A DNA stretch of 64,000 bases, from assembly GCF_904846055.1 (NCBI RefSeq), contig NZ_CAJGYV010000001.1:1550001-1614000 (forward strand). The letters run 5' to 3'. A model generated the notes under the pieces. It worked only from the letters and a program-made list of their open reading frames with translations, was not told the DNA's origin and searched no databases. The stretch is from Psychrobacter ciconiae. Lineage in GTDB: Bacteria > Pseudomonadota > Gammaproteobacteria > Pseudomonadales > Moraxellaceae. Made by a program: the position numbers and the translations under genes. Shown here piece after piece: positions 4,245 through 12,406 of this stretch (position 1 is its first letter; every line of letters starts with the position of its first letter).

Positions 4245-5030
4245 ATGTCGACTTCTTCAGTATTGTGGTCTTCTGTGACCATTGCAGCAGCTTTAATGCT
4301 TGGCGCTTGTAGCCCATCGACTGAGCAAAATGGCGCGGCAAGCGATAGCAGCGCGAGCGGCAAAACCCTACGGATTGCCACCGAGGGCGCTTACCCGCCG
4401 TTTAACCTGACCAATTCTGATGGCAGTTTGGGCGGCTTTGATGTTGATGTGATGAACGCGCTTTGCAAGCAAATGAACGCCAAATGCGACATTGTGGCTC
4501 AAGATTGGGATGGCATTATCCCAGGGCTGTTGGCTCAAAAATACGATGCGGTGATTGCGGGGATGTCCATCACCCCTGAGCGTCAAGAAAAAGTCGATTT
4601 TACCGAGCCGTATTTTGCCAATACCATGGTTTGGCTGACCAGCAGCAATGGCAAATTTGACCCCAATAATATTCAAAACTTAACCTTGGGTGGTCAGCGC
4701 TCAACGACACCGGGCGCGTATTTGCAAGATCATTATGAAGGCAAAAACGGCAACACCGTTCAGCTTTATGACAGCTATGACAATGCTTATTTAGACTTAA
4801 AGTCCGGTCGCAGTGATGCGGTATTGGCAGAAAAAGTCTCCGCAAAAGCTTGGCTCAAAGACAACCCTGAAGGCTTTGGCATTACCGGCGATGAGATTGA
4901 CAATGATGACAATATCGCCATTGCCGTTCGCAAAGGCGACACGTTAAAAAATGACTTTGACAACGCGCTAAAAGAAATCCGCGCTAATGGCGAGCTTGAG
5001 CGCATCGAAAAAGCCCATTTTGACCACTAA
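4245..5030 (+). CDS. Periplasmic amino-acid-binding lipoprotein, copy 1 of 3
   Basis: 261 residues with AAGGA upstream of the ATG. A signal sequence ends in the lipobox LGAC, so it is probably a membrane-anchored solute-binding protein of family 3 (HisJ/ArgT/ArtJ type). The ligand-binding phrases are visible: ATEGAYPPFN near the mature N-terminus, GGFDVDVMNALC, QDWDGIIPGL, and AGMSITPERQ, whose arginine holds the ligand carboxylate in this family. The specificity is probably a basic or polar amino acid, but cannot be fixed from sequence alone. It is the first of three tandem paralogues. Confidence 0.92.
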   Translation: MSTSSVLWSSVTIAAALMLGACSPSTEQNGAASDSSASGKTLRIATEGAYPPFNLTNSDGSLGGFDVDVMNALCKQMNAKCDIVAQDWDGIIPGLLAQKYDAVIAGMSITPERQEKVDFTEPYFANTMVWLTSSNGKFDPNNIQNLTLGGQRSTTPGAYLQDHYEGKNGNTVQLYDSYDNAYLDLKSGRSDAVLAEKVSAKAWLKDNPEGFGITGDEIDNDDNIAIAVRKGDTLKNDFDNALKEIRANGELERIEKAHFDH

Positions 5031-5125
5031 TTTTGCAATCTTAAACGCACAGTTTTAAACGAACGGTTTTAACAGCAAATAAGCGGCAACGCTGATAAGA
5101 CGACGTTTTGCTCAAGGACAATCAG

Positions 5126-5998
5126 ATGACTTCTAACCGGAAATTTTTTGCCAAATCAGCCGTGGTTACGCTCGTTGCAGCAGGCTTGCTGACGGCTTGT
5201 AGCAACGACAGCCCTGAAGCCGGCGCGGATAGCTCAGGCGACAACGCCCAAATCAAAATCGCCACCGAATCCAGCTTTAAACCATTCAGCTACACCGATG
5301 CCAACGGCAATTTAATTGGCTATGAGATTGATTTGGTCAATGCCTTATGCGACCAGATGAACGCGGATTGTGAGGTAATTTCACAAGACTGGGACGGCTT
5401 GATTCCTGGGCTGAATGCCAAAAAATTTGATGCGGCGATTGCGGGGATGTCCATCACCCCTGAGCGTAAAGAGGTCGTTGATTTTAGCGACCCGTATTTT
5501 CATACCGGCATCATTTTGATTGGCAAAAAAGGTGACAACATCACCGTCGATGATTTAAAAGCTCAGCCGATTGCCGCTCAGCGCGCCACCGTTGCCGCGC
5601 AATATCTACAAGACAAGCATAACGAGGCGGACATTAAGCTTTATGACACGCAAGACAACGCTTATCTTGATTTAACCTCAGGTCGCGTTCGTGCCATGAT
5701 GTCAGATAAAGTGGTTGGTTTGGACTGGCTGAAAACTGACGCTGGCAAGGATTATGAAGTGAAGGGCGCTGAAATCAGCTCTGATGAGGACGCCATGGGG
5801 ATTGCCTTTCAAAAGGGCAACCCGATGATTAGCAAATTTAACAAGGCATTGGCTGAAATCAAAGCCAACGGCACTTATGACAACATCACCACGAGATATT
5901 TTGGCGCAGACACCAAAGCGGCAAGCGCAGGGGATGACATTAAAGACGTGGTCGTGGTCGATGATAAGTCAGCGGATTTGGCAACTGCTGAACAGTAA
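5126..5998 (+). CDS. Periplasmic amino-acid-binding lipoprotein, copy 2 of 3
   Basis: 290 residues from the ATG at 5126, chosen because AAGGA is 7 bases upstream; an upstream TTG at 5108 lacks such a site. The lipobox is LTAC. Family 3 binding-protein motifs are kept (YEIDLVNALC, SQDWDGLIPGL, AGMSITPERK, FSDPYF), but the first ligand segment reads ATESSFKPFS rather than TEGAYPPFN, suggesting a different ligand preference. The C-terminus carries about 35 extra residues rich in Asp, Ala and Val beyond the fold. It is intact, not a decaying copy. Confidence 0.92.
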   Translation: MTSNRKFFAKSAVVTLVAAGLLTACSNDSPEAGADSSGDNAQIKIATESSFKPFSYTDANGNLIGYEIDLVNALCDQMNADCEVISQDWDGLIPGLNAKKFDAAIAGMSITPERKEVVDFSDPYFHTGIILIGKKGDNITVDDLKAQPIAAQRATVAAQYLQDKHNEADIKLYDTQDNAYLDLTSGRVRAMMSDKVVGLDWLKTDAGKDYEVKGAEISSDEDAMGIAFQKGNPMISKFNKALAEIKANGTYDNITTRYFGADTKAASAGDDIKDVVVVDDKSADLATAEQ

Positions 5999-6061
5999 CG
6001 GTTTTTGGCAGTATTATCATAAATCCATACCAAGCTTGCTTTGCCTTTTTAAGGAAAAATC

Positions 6062-6958
6062 ATGGCAATATCAAAAAAAACGGCGGTTAAGACGAAAGCA
6101 ATTTGGGCAATTGGGCTTGGCGCAATTTTGCTTAGCGGTTGTAGCAACTCACAAAAAGACGGCATAGAAAACTCAGCCTCAACAGATAGCGCGACCTCAA
6201 GTGAGGTGTTGAGGATTGGTACTGAAGGGGCGTATGCACCATTTAACTTCACCAATGCCGATGGCAGTTTGGGCGGCTTTGATGTGGAAATTGCTAACGC
6301 CCTTTGCGCGGACATGAAGGTCAAGTGCGAGATTAGCGCTCAAGATTGGGATGGTATTATTCCGGCCCTAAAAGCCGGAAAGTTTGATGCCATTGTCGCG
6401 GCGATGTCAGCGACCCCTGAGCGCGCCAAAGAGGTAAGCTTTACCGAGCCGTATTTTAGCAATAGCCTTGTGTTTTTAGCCAAAGACGGCGCAAGCTTTG
6501 ACCCTGCAAATGAAGCGGACATTAACGCCAACTCAATCGCCGCTCAGCGCTCGACCATCTCCTCGCAGTGGCTTGAAAATGCCTACCCAAAAGCCGACAT
6601 GAAGCTTTATGATACGCTGAGTAACGCCTTTTTGGATTTGGGTGCAGGGCGCGTTGATGCGATGATTTCAGACCAACTGCCCGCGCTTCAATGGCTAAGC
6701 TCGCCGTCTGGCAAAGGCTTTAGCATTAAAGGCGACGCCATCGACATCAACGACCATTTTGCCATTGCGGTGCGACCTGATGATGCCATCAAAGATAAAA
6801 TCAATCAGTCACTTGCCAATATCAAAGCCGACGGCACTTACGATAAGATTTATCAAAAGTATTTTTCACTCAATTCGGCTGACCGCTCAGCGGATTTCGT
6901 ATCGCCAGCAGACACGGGAGCGGGTGAAAATTTGCAAGATAACCCAAGCAAATCTTAG
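6062..6958 (+). CDS. Periplasmic amino-acid-binding lipoprotein, copy 3 of 3
   Basis: 298 residues with AAGGA before the ATG. The signal sequence ends in lipobox LSGC. It is closer to copy 1 (GTEGAYAPFN, LGGFDVEIANALC, AQDWDGIIPAL) than to copy 2, and has AAMSATPERA at the carboxylate-binding arginine. A polar tail of about 30 residues follows the folded part. A terminator-like hairpin lies 34 bp after the stop, so the binding proteins are probably made in larger amounts than the permeases downstream. Confidence 0.92.
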   Translation: MAISKKTAVKTKAIWAIGLGAILLSGCSNSQKDGIENSASTDSATSSEVLRIGTEGAYAPFNFTNADGSLGGFDVEIANALCADMKVKCEISAQDWDGIIPALKAGKFDAIVAAMSATPERAKEVSFTEPYFSNSLVFLAKDGASFDPANEADINANSIAAQRSTISSQWLENAYPKADMKLYDTLSNAFLDLGAGRVDAMISDQLPALQWLSSPSGKGFSIKGDAIDINDHFAIAVRPDDAIKDKINQSLANIKADGTYDKIYQKYFSLNSADRSADFVSPADTGAGENLQDNPSKS

Positions 6959-7270: not shown

Positions 7271-7999
7271 GTGATTGATTTACAAGGATTTGGCGGACTA
7301 CTGCTCAGCGGGGCTTTGGTCACCATTAAGATTACCTTAACCAGCCTTGCCATCGGAATGGTGCTTGGTTTGCTTGGCGCGACTGCTAAGTTGTCCTCAA
7401 TTTGGATTTTCCGAAAGCTTGCCACCATTTATACGGCAACCATGCGCGGCATTCCTGAGCTGTTGTTGGTGCTGTTTATTTATTTTGGTGGCTCAATGAT
7501 TTTGATGAGCGCGCTTAAGTCCTTTGGTTATAACAACTACGTTGAAATCAGTGCCTTTTGGGCGGGGGTGATGGCGCTATCGATTGCCTTTGGGGCTTAT
7601 GCCACTGAGATTTTGCGGATGGCAATTCAAGAAATCCCAGTCGGTCAAAGTGAAGCGGCGCAAGCAATTGGCATGCGACCGCTGCAAATTTTTTATCGCA
7701 TCACCTTGCCGCAAGTTTGGCAAATTGCGCTTCCTGGTCTTGGCAATTTGTTTTTGGTTTTGCTTAAAGATACGGCGCTGGTGTCGGTCGTTGGGCTTAA
7801 AGACATCATGTATCAGTCTTCGCGCGCGGCGCAGTCGACCCAGCAGCCGTTTACCTTTTATATGGCGGCGGCGATTATCTATTTGGGGCTGACAGTGTTG
7901 ATTACCGGATTTACCATGTGGCTTGAGTGGCGCGCTAATCCGGCGGCAAGGTACGCCAAAAAGCTCGCCAAGCTACCTGCACAAAGCATTGGTAATTAA
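7271..7999 (+). CDS. Amino-acid ABC importer permease (HisQ/ArtQ-like)
   Basis: 242 residues starting with GTG. It is an inner-membrane subunit of the polar amino-acid importer. About five hydrophobic helices are visible, with the family's N-terminal GALVTIKITLTSLAIGMVLG and TMRGIPELLLVLFIYFGG, and the ATPase-docking EAA loop EAAQAIGMRPLQIFYRITLP near residue 140. The stop is 11 bp before the next permease start, and the two would form a heterodimeric channel. Confidence 0.93.
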   Translation: MIDLQGFGGLLLSGALVTIKITLTSLAIGMVLGLLGATAKLSSIWIFRKLATIYTATMRGIPELLLVLFIYFGGSMILMSALKSFGYNNYVEISAFWAGVMALSIAFGAYATEILRMAIQEIPVGQSEAAQAIGMRPLQIFYRITLPQVWQIALPGLGNLFLVLLKDTALVSVVGLKDIMYQSSRAAQSTQQPFTFYMAAAIIYLGLTVLITGFTMWLEWRANPAARYAKKLAKLPAQSIGN

Positions 8000-8010
8000 A
8001 GGAGCAGATA

Positions 8011-8724
8011 ATGGATTGGAATTGGCAAGTTATTTTTGACCATATCCCAGATTTGCTCGGTGGGGCGGTGCTGACCGCGCAACTGGTGGTCTTTTCAGGA
8101 ATTGTCGGGCTGATTTTAGCGCAGTTACGGCTGTCAAAAAGCATGGCGGTGCAAGCGTTGCCGTTTGCTTATATTTTCTTTTTCCGTGGCACGCCGCTGC
8201 TGGTTCAAATCTTTTTGATTTATTATGGTTTGGGGCAGTTTGAGGCCGTTCGCAATTCGTTTTTGTGGGAGCCGGTGCTAAGCCAAGCCTATTGGTGCGC
8301 CATCATTGCCTTTACCATGAATACCAGTGCTTATTTGGCGGAGATTTTTCGCGGGGCGATTCAAACCATTCCGGTAGGGGAGCTTGAAGCCGCGGACGCC
8401 ATTGGCATGTCAAAATGGCAAAAGCTGACCCGAATTACCTTGCCGCGCGCCTTTGGCATTGTGATTCCGGCGTACAGCAACGAAGTGATTTTTATGCTCA
8501 AAGGCAGCGCCCTTGCCTCAACCATTGCTTTGATGGACATCACCGGCGTTGCCCGAACCATCAGCGCAAGAACTTATACGTTGATGGAGTTGTTTTTTGC
8601 CGCAGGGGTGATTTATTTGCTGCTGTCTTGGGTGATTTTATTGAGCTTTAGGCTGCTTGAGCAGCGCTTGAACCGCTATATGAGCTATGTGCCGCCTGAT
8701 GTTCTGACCAAAACCATTCCTTAA
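8011..8724 (+). CDS. Amino-acid ABC importer permease (HisM/ArtM-like)
   Basis: 237 residues with AAAGGAG upstream of the ATG. It is the second membrane subunit of the importer. Family phrases are FFRGTPLLVQIFLIYYG and the EAA loop EAADAIGMSKWQKLTRITLP, followed by helices to the C-terminus. It ends the importer cluster; an inverted repeat follows at 8760-8784. With the ATPase at 3151 and binding proteins at 4245-6958 the importer is complete. Confidence 0.93.
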   Translation: MDWNWQVIFDHIPDLLGGAVLTAQLVVFSGIVGLILAQLRLSKSMAVQALPFAYIFFFRGTPLLVQIFLIYYGLGQFEAVRNSFLWEPVLSQAYWCAIIAFTMNTSAYLAEIFRGAIQTIPVGELEAADAIGMSKWQKLTRITLPRAFGIVIPAYSNEVIFMLKGSALASTIALMDITGVARTISARTYTLMELFFAAGVIYLLLSWVILLSFRLLEQRLNRYMSYVPPDVLTKTIP

Positions 8725-8784: not shown

Positions 8785-8849
8785 ATCCGCCAAAGGTAGC
8801 AAAGTCAACGCTTTGCAAGCCGTCACTTAAACCTTTATGGACAAGAGTA

Positions 8850-10520
8850 TTGAGCAGGTTAGCAAAGAAAAAAAAGCAAAAAAAAGCCCTGCCAAAGATT
8901 GAGCTGGTGACGGACATCAGCTTTCGGCGCGGCGCGGTAGAAGCCGTACCGCTTGGCACATCAAAAGCCGTTGAAACCATGTTCCGTAACGCGCTGCGAA
9001 CGGAGCTTGATTTGATTGCCTTAGCTGCCACCAAAGCCAACATTATGATTTCGCTAAATGGCATCATCATCTCGGCGCTGATGATTTCAGGGGCGTTTAT
9101 TTTTGTGTCCTCAGCGGCGTTTTTAATTCCGGCGGGCATGTTTATGTTTACCGCTGCCGCTTCCATCTTTTTCGCCATTCTTGCCGCGGCTCCTGAAAAG
9201 GCGAACTATTTTGCTGGATTTTTTGCTTGGGGACGGGCATGGGTTAAAAAAGAAGCCACAAGGCAGGATTTGGCGACCTATTTGTACAAAGCCAATCAGT
9301 TTGGCGGCGGTGATAAGGTCAACTTGCTGATAAATAAAGACCGGATGCAGCTGTCGCGCGAGGAATATTGGTGGCAAATGCAAGAGCTGATGCGCGACCG
9401 CGACGAAACGTATCATGCGATGAGCGACCAGCTGTATTGGCTTGGGCAGATTGCCGCGCGCAATTTTAAGATGCTCAGTATCTCCTACTCCTTTTTTCGT
9501 TGGGGAATGCTCATTTCGGTGCTGACCTCCATTATTTTAAAAGCTTTGGTGGTGGTTTATCCTACCGCGCTTGGTCAGACGCCAAGTGTGCCATTATCTG
9601 CCACCGGAATGGGAACGCTGACCGACGTTTATGAGCCATCCGCCGTTCAGCAGTTGCCTGATGGTCGCGTGCTTGTGGTTGAAGACGAAGAGCATCGCGC
9701 GATGAACCTGCTAACCGTTGAGCCTGATGGCAGTTTGGTTGAAAATCAGGTCGCAAGCTTGCAGATGACGCGCGGTTTTGGTCGTAAGCTTAACGACTTA
9801 GAAGGGCTAAGCGCTGATGATAAAGGCTTTATTTATGCCATCACCTCGCATTCCGCCGACTCCAATGGTCACCGTGACCCAACCCGTGAGCAGCTGCTGC
9901 GCTTTCGAGTCAATGGCAATATGCCCTCTGAGATTACCGAAGTTACGAGCCTTCGCGATGATTTAGCAAATTCAAGCTCCCTGCAAGCTGCCTTTCAGAA
10001 AATGCTAAATACCACCATCGATTTTAAAGACTTGGACATTGAAGGTCTTGCTTTTGATAATGACAGCGGCAATTTGATGCTTGGACTGCGAGCGCCGTTG
10101 GCGGGCAATCGCTCAATCATCATCCCGATTGTCAATACGGATGCCATGTTTTCACAAAAAGTACCGCCGCAGTTTGGCACGCCCATCTTTTTGGACTTAG
10201 ATGGCGGCGGCATTCGCTCCTTGTATTTTGATGCGGTGCTCAGCCAGTTTGTCATTGCCAACGAAATCACCAACGCTGATGGCGACAAAAAAGCGCAGAT
10301 TTGGACGTGGTCGGGGGATATTGATGACAAACCAGTTAAAATTCATGCCCCTGAGCTTGATGAGCTCAAAAACATCGAAGCGGTTGACTCCATCACCGCC
10401 AATGGCACTATAAAAATGATTTTTATGGCGGATGAAGGCGATGCCAAAAAAGGTATTCATGCGCGCTATGTGATGCTTGATTATAAAAACATTTTGCCGA
10501 ATACCAAAGCTAAGCGCTAA
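8850..10520 (+). CDS. Fusion of a PycTM-like (DUF5706) membrane module to a DUF3616-type periplasmic domain
   Basis: 556 residues from a TTG at 8850. Residues about 44-236 resemble the Pycsar effector membrane domain: FRNALRTELDLIALAATKAN, then two adjacent helices (about 63-83 and 87-113), a cytosolic stretch with EEYWWQMQELMRDRDETYHA and LYWLGQIAARNFKML, and a third helix (about 212-236). Three helices would place residues 255-550 in the periplasm. That part resembles DUF3616: YEPSAVQQLPDG, DLEGLS, ITSHSADSNG, LGLRAPLAG, FLDLDGGGIRSL. It closely matches the next gene product. No nucleotide cyclase is adjacent, so I do not call a Pycsar system. The start is uncertain: ATG at 8837 lies in another frame ahead of two A8 runs. 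Both domain calls rest on recalled family features. Function is unknown. Confidence 0.75.
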   Translation: MSRLAKKKKQKKALPKIELVTDISFRRGAVEAVPLGTSKAVETMFRNALRTELDLIALAATKANIMISLNGIIISALMISGAFIFVSSAAFLIPAGMFMFTAAASIFFAILAAAPEKANYFAGFFAWGRAWVKKEATRQDLATYLYKANQFGGGDKVNLLINKDRMQLSREEYWWQMQELMRDRDETYHAMSDQLYWLGQIAARNFKMLSISYSFFRWGMLISVLTSIILKALVVVYPTALGQTPSVPLSATGMGTLTDVYEPSAVQQLPDGRVLVVEDEEHRAMNLLTVEPDGSLVENQVASLQMTRGFGRKLNDLEGLSADDKGFIYAITSHSADSNGHRDPTREQLLRFRVNGNMPSEITEVTSLRDDLANSSSLQAAFQKMLNTTIDFKDLDIEGLAFDNDSGNLMLGLRAPLAGNRSIIIPIVNTDAMFSQKVPPQFGTPIFLDLDGGGIRSLYFDAVLSQFVIANEITNADGDKKAQIWTWSGDIDDKPVKIHAPELDELKNIEAVDSITANGTIKMIFMADEGDAKKGIHARYVMLDYKNILPNTKAKR

Positions 10521-11749: not shown

Positions 11750-12406
11750 ATGACAGCTCTACAACAGGCATTAACGGTGGGCAAAGTGATTTGCGTGGGT
11801 CGCAATTATGCCGCTCATGCGCGTGAGCTTGGCAATGACGTTCCTAAATCGCCGCTTTTGTTCATGAAGCCGGCATCGTGCGTGACTTATCTGAATCAAC
11901 ATGAGGTCGGCACAATTCATCTTCCTGATGCCGATAAGTTTGGCGACACCCATTACGAAGCTGAGCTTTGTATTCAGTTATCCGGCGATTTAAAAAACGC
12001 CACGGCTGCTGAGGCAAAAGCTGCCATTGGCGGCGTGACTTTAGGGCTTGATTTGACGCTGCGCGAGCTGCAAAGCCAGCTTAAAGACAAAGGTCAGCCT
12101 TGGGAGCGTGCCAAATGCTTTGATGGCGCTTGCGTGCTGGGCGATTGGGTTGAGCCGCAGGTGTTTGGCGATTTTACCGACGTTCATTATCAGTTATTTA
12201 TCAATGATGAAAAAGTCCAAGATGGGGACAGCAGTTTGATGCTGTTTCCTGTGCTTGAGCTTTTGGTTGAGATTAGCCACGCCTTTAGCTTGCAGGCGGG
12301 GGACGTCATTATGACGGGAACGCCAAGCGGTGTTGGTAAGTTGGCTTGCGGCGATAAGCTTGTTTTAGTCCTTAATGAGTATTCTTGGCACGCTTGCGTT
12401 CAATAA
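11750..12406 (+). CDS. Fumarylacetoacetate hydrolase family protein (YcgM-like acylpyruvase)
   Basis: 218 residues, the compact length of YcgM-type members, with AAGGA upstream of the ATG. These metal-dependent cytosolic enzymes hydrolyse or decarboxylate 2,4-dioxo acids such as acylpyruvates. Motifs: CVGRNYAAHARELGN at the N-terminus, FMKPASC, the metal-ligand stretch HYEAELCIQL, the GVTLGLDLTLRELQ segment, and the C-terminal GDVIMTGTPSGVG. The exact substrate is not determinable. It is an isolated gene 71 bp after the DUF3616 gene. Confidence 0.88.
   Translation: MTALQQALTVGKVICVGRNYAAHARELGNDVPKSPLLFMKPASCVTYLNQHEVGTIHLPDADKFGDTHYEAELCIQLSGDLKNATAAEAKAAIGGVTLGLDLTLRELQSQLKDKGQPWERAKCFDGACVLGDWVEPQVFGDFTDVHYQLFINDEKVQDGDSSLMLFPVLELLVEISHAFSLQAGDVIMTGTPSGVGKLACGDKLVLVLNEYSWHACVQ

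Follow-up and report, generated by a model that had tools for sequence, protein, structure and literature searches.

A PycTM-DUF3616 fusion gene in Psychrobacter belongs to a PycTM lineage whose distant relatives adjoin phosphate and polyphosphate genes

Analysis of the window (the whole 64,000-nucleotide stretch of the Psychrobacter ciconiae genome under study) identified a gene that joins a three-helix PycTM domain and a DUF3616 domain in one open frame. The evidence leans, without great force, toward placing this gene in a distinct PycTM lineage that handles phosphate or polyphosphate at the cell envelope and does not serve cyclic-nucleotide immunity. A phosphate-handling envelope device is preferred over a defence weapon because distant relatives of the fusion adjoin genes of phosphate uptake and polyphosphate metabolism. 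For the window's own lineage we infer the function from those distant relatives, since phosphate neighbours and a Pho box are absent there. PycTM takes its name from a phage-defence effector, described in the excerpted text of PMC11224242 as pore forming in its canonical form, and defence annotation will label genes of this kind likewise. If the preferred reading is true, the defence label of this PycTM lineage would be corrected, DUF3616 would gain its first functional context, and some bacteria would offer a testable candidate for linking cytosolic polyphosphate with the envelope.

Residues 1 to 240 of the fusion match PF18967 (PycTM; E 2.4e-13, 50.8 bits against a curated Pfam cut-off of 27.2), and the N-terminal part also matches the PADLOC PycTM model (E 8.8e-9). 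For the C-terminal 320 residues the match is to DUF3616 (PF12275; E 2.3e-8; 34.3 bits, curated cut-off 20.6), so that each part, matched separately, lies above its own Pfam cut-off. Hydropathy shows three helices, of which helices 1 and 2 form a tight hairpin and helix 3 directly precedes the DUF3616 part (Table 1). The original prediction of a PycTM-like N terminus with three helices, followed by a DUF3616-like C-terminal part, is borne out by these matches. An NCBIfam search returned a single match, under cut-off, and when the DUF3616 and PycTM profiles were run against the sequences of solved structures, only chance-like matches resulted, for instance recurrent short hits on polyubiquitin.

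Table 1. Features of the PycTM-DUF3616 fusion and of the gene that follows it, in window coordinates
Feature	Position	Strand	Basis or remark
Fusion gene PycTM-DUF3616	8850..10520	+	556 aa from TTG, start unsure
PycTM-like domain, residues 53-231	9006..9542	+	PADLOC and Pfam matches
Signature LAATKANIMISLNG, start of helix 1, residues 58-71	9021..9062	+	conserved block, alignments A1 and A2
Predicted helix 1, about residues 65-90	9042..9119	+	hydropathy
Predicted helix 2, about residues 95-113	9132..9188	+	hydropathy
Predicted helix 3, residues 218-236, leading to the periplasmic part	9501..9557	+	hydropathy; export segments of split relatives
DUF3616 propeller-like domain, residues 256-556	9615..10517	+	PF12275; alignment A3
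Stand-alone second DUF3616 protein, 354 aa, N-terminal hydrophobic export segment	10614..11678	+	Pfam, hydropathy

The N terminus of the fusion is unsure. Its frame opens at 8700 in the window and the earliest start is the TTG at 8850; the ATG at 8837 belongs to a different frame, which runs into two A runs before the fusion's own frame (8837-8890). In five Psychrobacter relatives the frame extends further upstream, to a TTG that in four of them (L004-L007) stands behind a Shine-Dalgarno-like stretch, and the extended N terminus of these proteins is lysine rich and of low complexity. The N terminus of the window gene may thus differ from that of the Psychrobacter relatives, which start further upstream. 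Both domains of the fusion are unaffected by the doubt over the start codon.

Relatives were taken as the best 80 of 92 loci from one scan of genome contigs. Among these 80, PycTM and DUF3616 occupy one open frame in the same order at 57 loci (L009, among them, is truncated where its contig stops), and because this arrangement recurs in other genomes we regard the fusion as more than chance. At 21 of the 80, PycTM stops after helix 3, and the addition of a later-found locus, L101, brings the split loci to 22. The DUF3616 gene comes next on the same strand in 20 of the 22 split loci, and in 16 the two open reading frames overlap or lie no more than 30 bp apart; this retained order and contact mark PycTM and DUF3616 as an old unit. 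At the split locus L077 the DUF3616 gene lies on the far side of a divergent operon, and at L069 it was not found within about 1.1 kb downstream. Two loci were counted as neither split nor fused: L057, a fragment, and L055, which sits in the fused branch and showed no DUF3616 downstream.

The phylogenetic tree comprises 97 rows, leaving out the partial L009 and the fragment L057, labelling L055 as split and including L120, an identical copy of L016. Fused and split labels require at least four changes on this tree, three of them forced by well-supported branches and one being L055, and fusion or splitting therefore occurred more than once. The window's Psychrobacter group (six rows, 100/100) is nested inside a 26-row branch (99/80), the remainder of which consists of Paracoccus, one Neomegalonema, two actinobacterial metagenome-assembled genomes (MAGs), for which mis-binning is possible, and one other genome. 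Such a spread of one lineage across distant genera points to horizontal transfer. The nearest relatives of the fusion are those in Psychrobacter, and within the genus 6 of 60 genomes, the window's own included in the count, have the gene. Plasmids contributed 17 records, all with unfused DUF3616 matches and none covering 80% of the query, and the only positive among 385 genomes of the alphaproteobacterial class sample was the centre genome itself. Two split loci, L069 and L074, share a record prefix and possibly come from one MAG; L074 stands outside the genome counts.

Locus flanks were searched by tblastn; four of the nine queries represented phosphate families and came from the loci themselves. 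A second count, a Pfam census at E ≤ 1e-5, covered 121 proteins neighbouring the 22 split loci. By tblastn, at least one phosphate gene lies in the flanks of 14 of the 22 split loci: Porin_O_P (PF07396) at nine, PHO4 (PiT) at five, PPK1 at five and a Na/Pi cotransporter at three, of which the match at L066 is weak. PhoU_div is also found at L077. The census agrees, with seven Porin_O_P, four PHO4, three PPK1, two Na_Pi_cotrans and three Alginate_exp proteins among the 25 of 105 families listed; its counts are lower because some genes are cut, overlapped or more than three genes away. The three phosphate families Porin_O_P, PPK1 and PHO4 have 0 to 3 copies per genome in 20 of the split genomes, where random placement would give 0.069 loci with a porin, 0.083 with PPK1 and 0.068 with PHO4 against the 9, 5 and 5 observed, an estimate that is too strong because the split loci belong to a handful of clades and kinship is ignored. 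PF07396 is the OprO/OprP family, whose porins are up under phosphate limitation in Pseudomonas according to the consulted part of PMC9769906, a part that draws no link to PycTM or DUF3616.

Among the fused loci of the best 80 of 92, 3 of 57 have a phosphate neighbour (L025, L046 and L049), in each case the porin immediately upstream, and a census of 104 neighbours from 23 fused or L055 loci, to which L050 contributed none, lists Porin_O_P three times, PsiE twice and cNMP_binding twice among 25 of 101 families. In the window's own branch, tblastn of the flanks placed phosphate neighbours at no locus. The queried phosphate genes were also absent from the seven strong loci of a class-wide sample (L101-L107), from three loci of a phylum-wide sample (L120-L122) and from eight outgroup PycTM loci (L108-L115). 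At three split loci, an Alginate_exp outer-membrane barrel takes the place of the phosphate porin beside the pair (L063:6573-7892, L083:7560-9035 and L101:10248-11600).

Two further findings, the phylogeny of the PPK1s and a locus found later, are independent of the random-placement estimate. Each of the five genomes with a PPK1 at the locus encodes a second PPK1 elsewhere. The five locus PPK1s, whose hosts are alpha- and gammaproteobacteria, group in a single clade (99/95) separate from 21 other PPK1s, and all five retain the KTHxK and FLEHxR motifs, whose histidines we take to be catalytic. In one MAG (L072:2320-5241), PPK1 and PycTM share a single 973-residue open frame. When 299 genomes from a single order were searched after the hypothesis had been formed, one new locus emerged, G1378, at which Porin_O_P, PHO4, PPK1, PycTM and DUF3616 occur together. 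The sole PPK1s (L163, L165 and L169) of the split genomes L075, L078 and L069, none of which has a PPK1 beside its locus, share a larger PPK1 branch with the locus-linked copies.

These observations bear on the possibility that the protein is a signalling or scaffold device, in which the propeller would sense an unrelated periplasmic ligand, the membrane part would relay the signal inward and the phosphate neighbours would be a trait of one branch. Propeller domains commonly bind ligands or proteins, genes for a NarX/NarL-like sensor and regulator adjoin L046, L067, L068 and L074, and the window's lineage has spread across distant genera without phosphate neighbours, all of which suits such a device. 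The PPK1 clade at the locus, the PPK1-PycTM fusion and the held-out G1378 locus, however, connect the unit with polyphosphate across several clades, and we consider a signalling role unlikely, though deserving of some weight.

Part of the DUF3616 family resembles phytase-like propellers. At E ≤ 1, 24 of 27 aligned DUF3616 members match PF12275, 17 match Phytase-like PF13449 (best E 5.5e-9) and 12 match SdiA-regulated; some relatives, for example L068, L070 and L079, exceed the PF13449 cut-off of 27.6 bits, and the window's own DUF3616 domain matches PF12275 only, with no PF13449 match at E ≤ 1. Several Glu, Asp and Arg residues are invariant and dispersed along the domain. Membership in the DUF3616 family would suggest a six-bladed propeller with a metal or phosphate site, and catalysis is putative, following from the family name. 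DUF3616 is given as "possibly a Phytase" in the excerpt of PMC8052667, and a Nodularia protein annotated with "esterase-like activity of phytase" is up under phosphate limitation in that of PMC9846622; the consulted parts of PMC3130047 and PMC6997564 mention DUF3616 without giving a function for it. Unlike other DUF3616 and Phytase-like propellers, those described here are coupled or fused to PycTM, a pairing for which, as the original prediction had stated, no described function was found in the literature searched. Within that same literature, and saying nothing beyond it, polyphosphate kinase and Pycsar were not found together, nor was DUF5706 found.

A hydrophobic N-terminal segment precedes the propeller in all 18 stand-alone DUF3616 proteins of split loci (alignment A3), which supports a periplasmic placement of DUF3616, in keeping with the periplasmic location originally predicted for the C-terminal domain. 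The propeller parts of seven fused proteins have no such export segment, and PycTM helix 3 therefore appears to substitute for it in the fusion.

In the proposed arrangement, the three-helix PycTM part would lie in the inner membrane, probably as an oligomer; its N-terminal side would face the cytosol, and helix 3 would run toward the periplasm. In the relatives, a dedicated PPK1 would act at the cytosolic face of PycTM and the phytase-like beta-propeller of DUF3616 at the periplasmic face, and the outer-membrane phosphate porin and the PiT transporter would complete the route. This order of cytosol, membrane and periplasm is suggested by the two fusions, PPK1-PycTM and PycTM-DUF3616. The propeller would most likely bind phosphate polymers or esters in the periplasm, or hydrolyse them, and the membrane part would couple that action spatially to phosphate entry and polyphosphate synthesis, the direction of phosphate flow being putative. 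In the window organism, one protein carries both domains and a second copy of the propeller accompanies it, the function presumably being retained in the fused lineage.

A narrower and rather unlikely reading holds that the PycTM lineage with AATKA at helix 1 is a bacterial polyphosphate channel resembling the yeast VTC complex. Polyphosphate made by the dedicated PPK1, which at L072 is fused to PycTM, would be threaded through an oligomer of three-helix subunits to reach the periplasm; there the chain would be capped, trimmed or held by the DUF3616 propeller, with the OprO/P-type porin beyond. The motif ADxKA is found at helix 1 in all eight outgroup PycTMs and in seven deep rows, with ADGKA in L102 besides, whereas AATKA is present in 78 rows of the phosphate-linked lineage and AAMKA in L101 (four rows were not parsed). 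This lineage has therefore lost the acidic residue beside the invariant lysine, and in a channel that lysine would be left unpaired, as an anion path requires. VTC subunits have three helices, and PPK1 is not known to be related to the VTC polymerase. In yeast VTC, according to PMC9911596, the polymerase is cytosolic and delivers its product to a membrane channel whose lining consists of basic helix-1 residues. The likeness of L072 to VTC is one of layout only, an enzyme that makes polyphosphate in the cytosol and, after it, a membrane part of three helices; unlike VTC, the module has no SPX domain and has an additional periplasmic propeller. If the channel reading is true, one fold would underlie both a pore for phage defence and a channel for polyphosphate, and the window's fused form with its second propeller would represent a compact variant that has spread horizontally.

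On the preferred reading of a phosphate-handling envelope module, the PycTM part does more than hold the propeller in place. That it is a mere membrane anchor appears doubtful, even though helix 3 could replace the export segments of split DUF3616 proteins, among which a lipobox pattern occurs in 4 of 18 and is plausible in 3. At those 20 of 22 split loci PycTM persists as a separate gene next to DUF3616, and 24 of its columns are invariant over 36 sequences, four of them (M177, Y188, M191 and G199) between helices 2 and 3; a mere anchor would need neither.

The fusion shares with the Pycsar effector PycTM (PF18967) the above-cut-off domain match, the helix arrangement and the KA motif at helix 1. 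It differs in having no cyclase partner, in its C-terminal propeller, in AATKA for ADxKA and in the phosphate neighbours of its distant relatives. A pyrimidine cyclase gene adjoining the effector, by which Pycsar is recognized, was not found in the window, and the genome's sole PF00211 match (C1:2101989) lies about 540 kb away, in agreement with the original statement that a cyclase neighbour is absent. A tblastn search with 17 class III cyclase sequences against 98 loci, which divergent cyclases may escape, gave a single subfamily locus with a flanking cyclase, L103, out of 90 (a figure that includes one duplicate); the outgroup PycTM locus L110 also has a match. A weak match at L101 was set aside because we judge it to lie in a response regulator. 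Counted over the whole genome, 28 of 35 genomes searched have a class III cyclase, the window's genome having one. In the deep fused relative L103 (9528-12795), which carries the ADNKA motif, the fusion is faced by a class III cyclase and by a Crp-like gene, and it is a possible link between the two sides of the family.

A Pycsar-like effector, in which a cyclic nucleotide from a distant cyclase would open PycTM and kill the infected cell with the propeller as plug or sensor, fits the significant Pfam and PADLOC matches, the frequency of class III cyclases among the genomes searched, the arrangement at L103 and the patchy distribution within the genus, but is highly improbable given the single subfamily locus with a flanking cyclase (divergent ones may be missed), the metabolic setting of the window gene, the phosphate genes beside distant relatives and the change from ADxKA in 8 of 8 outgroup sequences to AATKA. 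The original interpretation holds for the domains, the helices, the missing cyclase and the predicted periplasmic part, and is not supported in its starting point in cyclic nucleotides; what recurs beside distant relatives is phosphate and polyphosphate machinery.

The stand-alone DUF3616 protein is encoded by the next gene after the fusion and is 51 to 53% identical to the fusion's C-terminal half. Both genes occur in all six gene-positive genomes of the genus, and an additional DUF3616 lies beside the fusion at 9 of the 57 fused loci among the best 80 of 92. The genes surrounding the fusion are ordinary and metabolic, with ABC permeases upstream and a fumarylacetoacetate-hydrolase-family gene, an alpha/beta hydrolase and Hsp33 downstream (Pfam). 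A scan of the window for Pho boxes, allowing up to three mismatches, found eight sites against a chance mean of 3.5, none of them 5′ of the PycTM-DUF3616 pair; the best match (11750-11767, minus strand) lies at the start of the gene following the pair. Across 21 split, 17 deep fused and 13 window-type loci, Pho box enrichment over the expectation of a first-order model was not clear, and the closest sites among split loci are those of L075 and L074. Further upstream in the window, three similar periplasmic amino-acid-binding proteins, recognized by eye, are encoded in tandem at 4245-6958 and are followed by two ABC permeases at 7271-8724.
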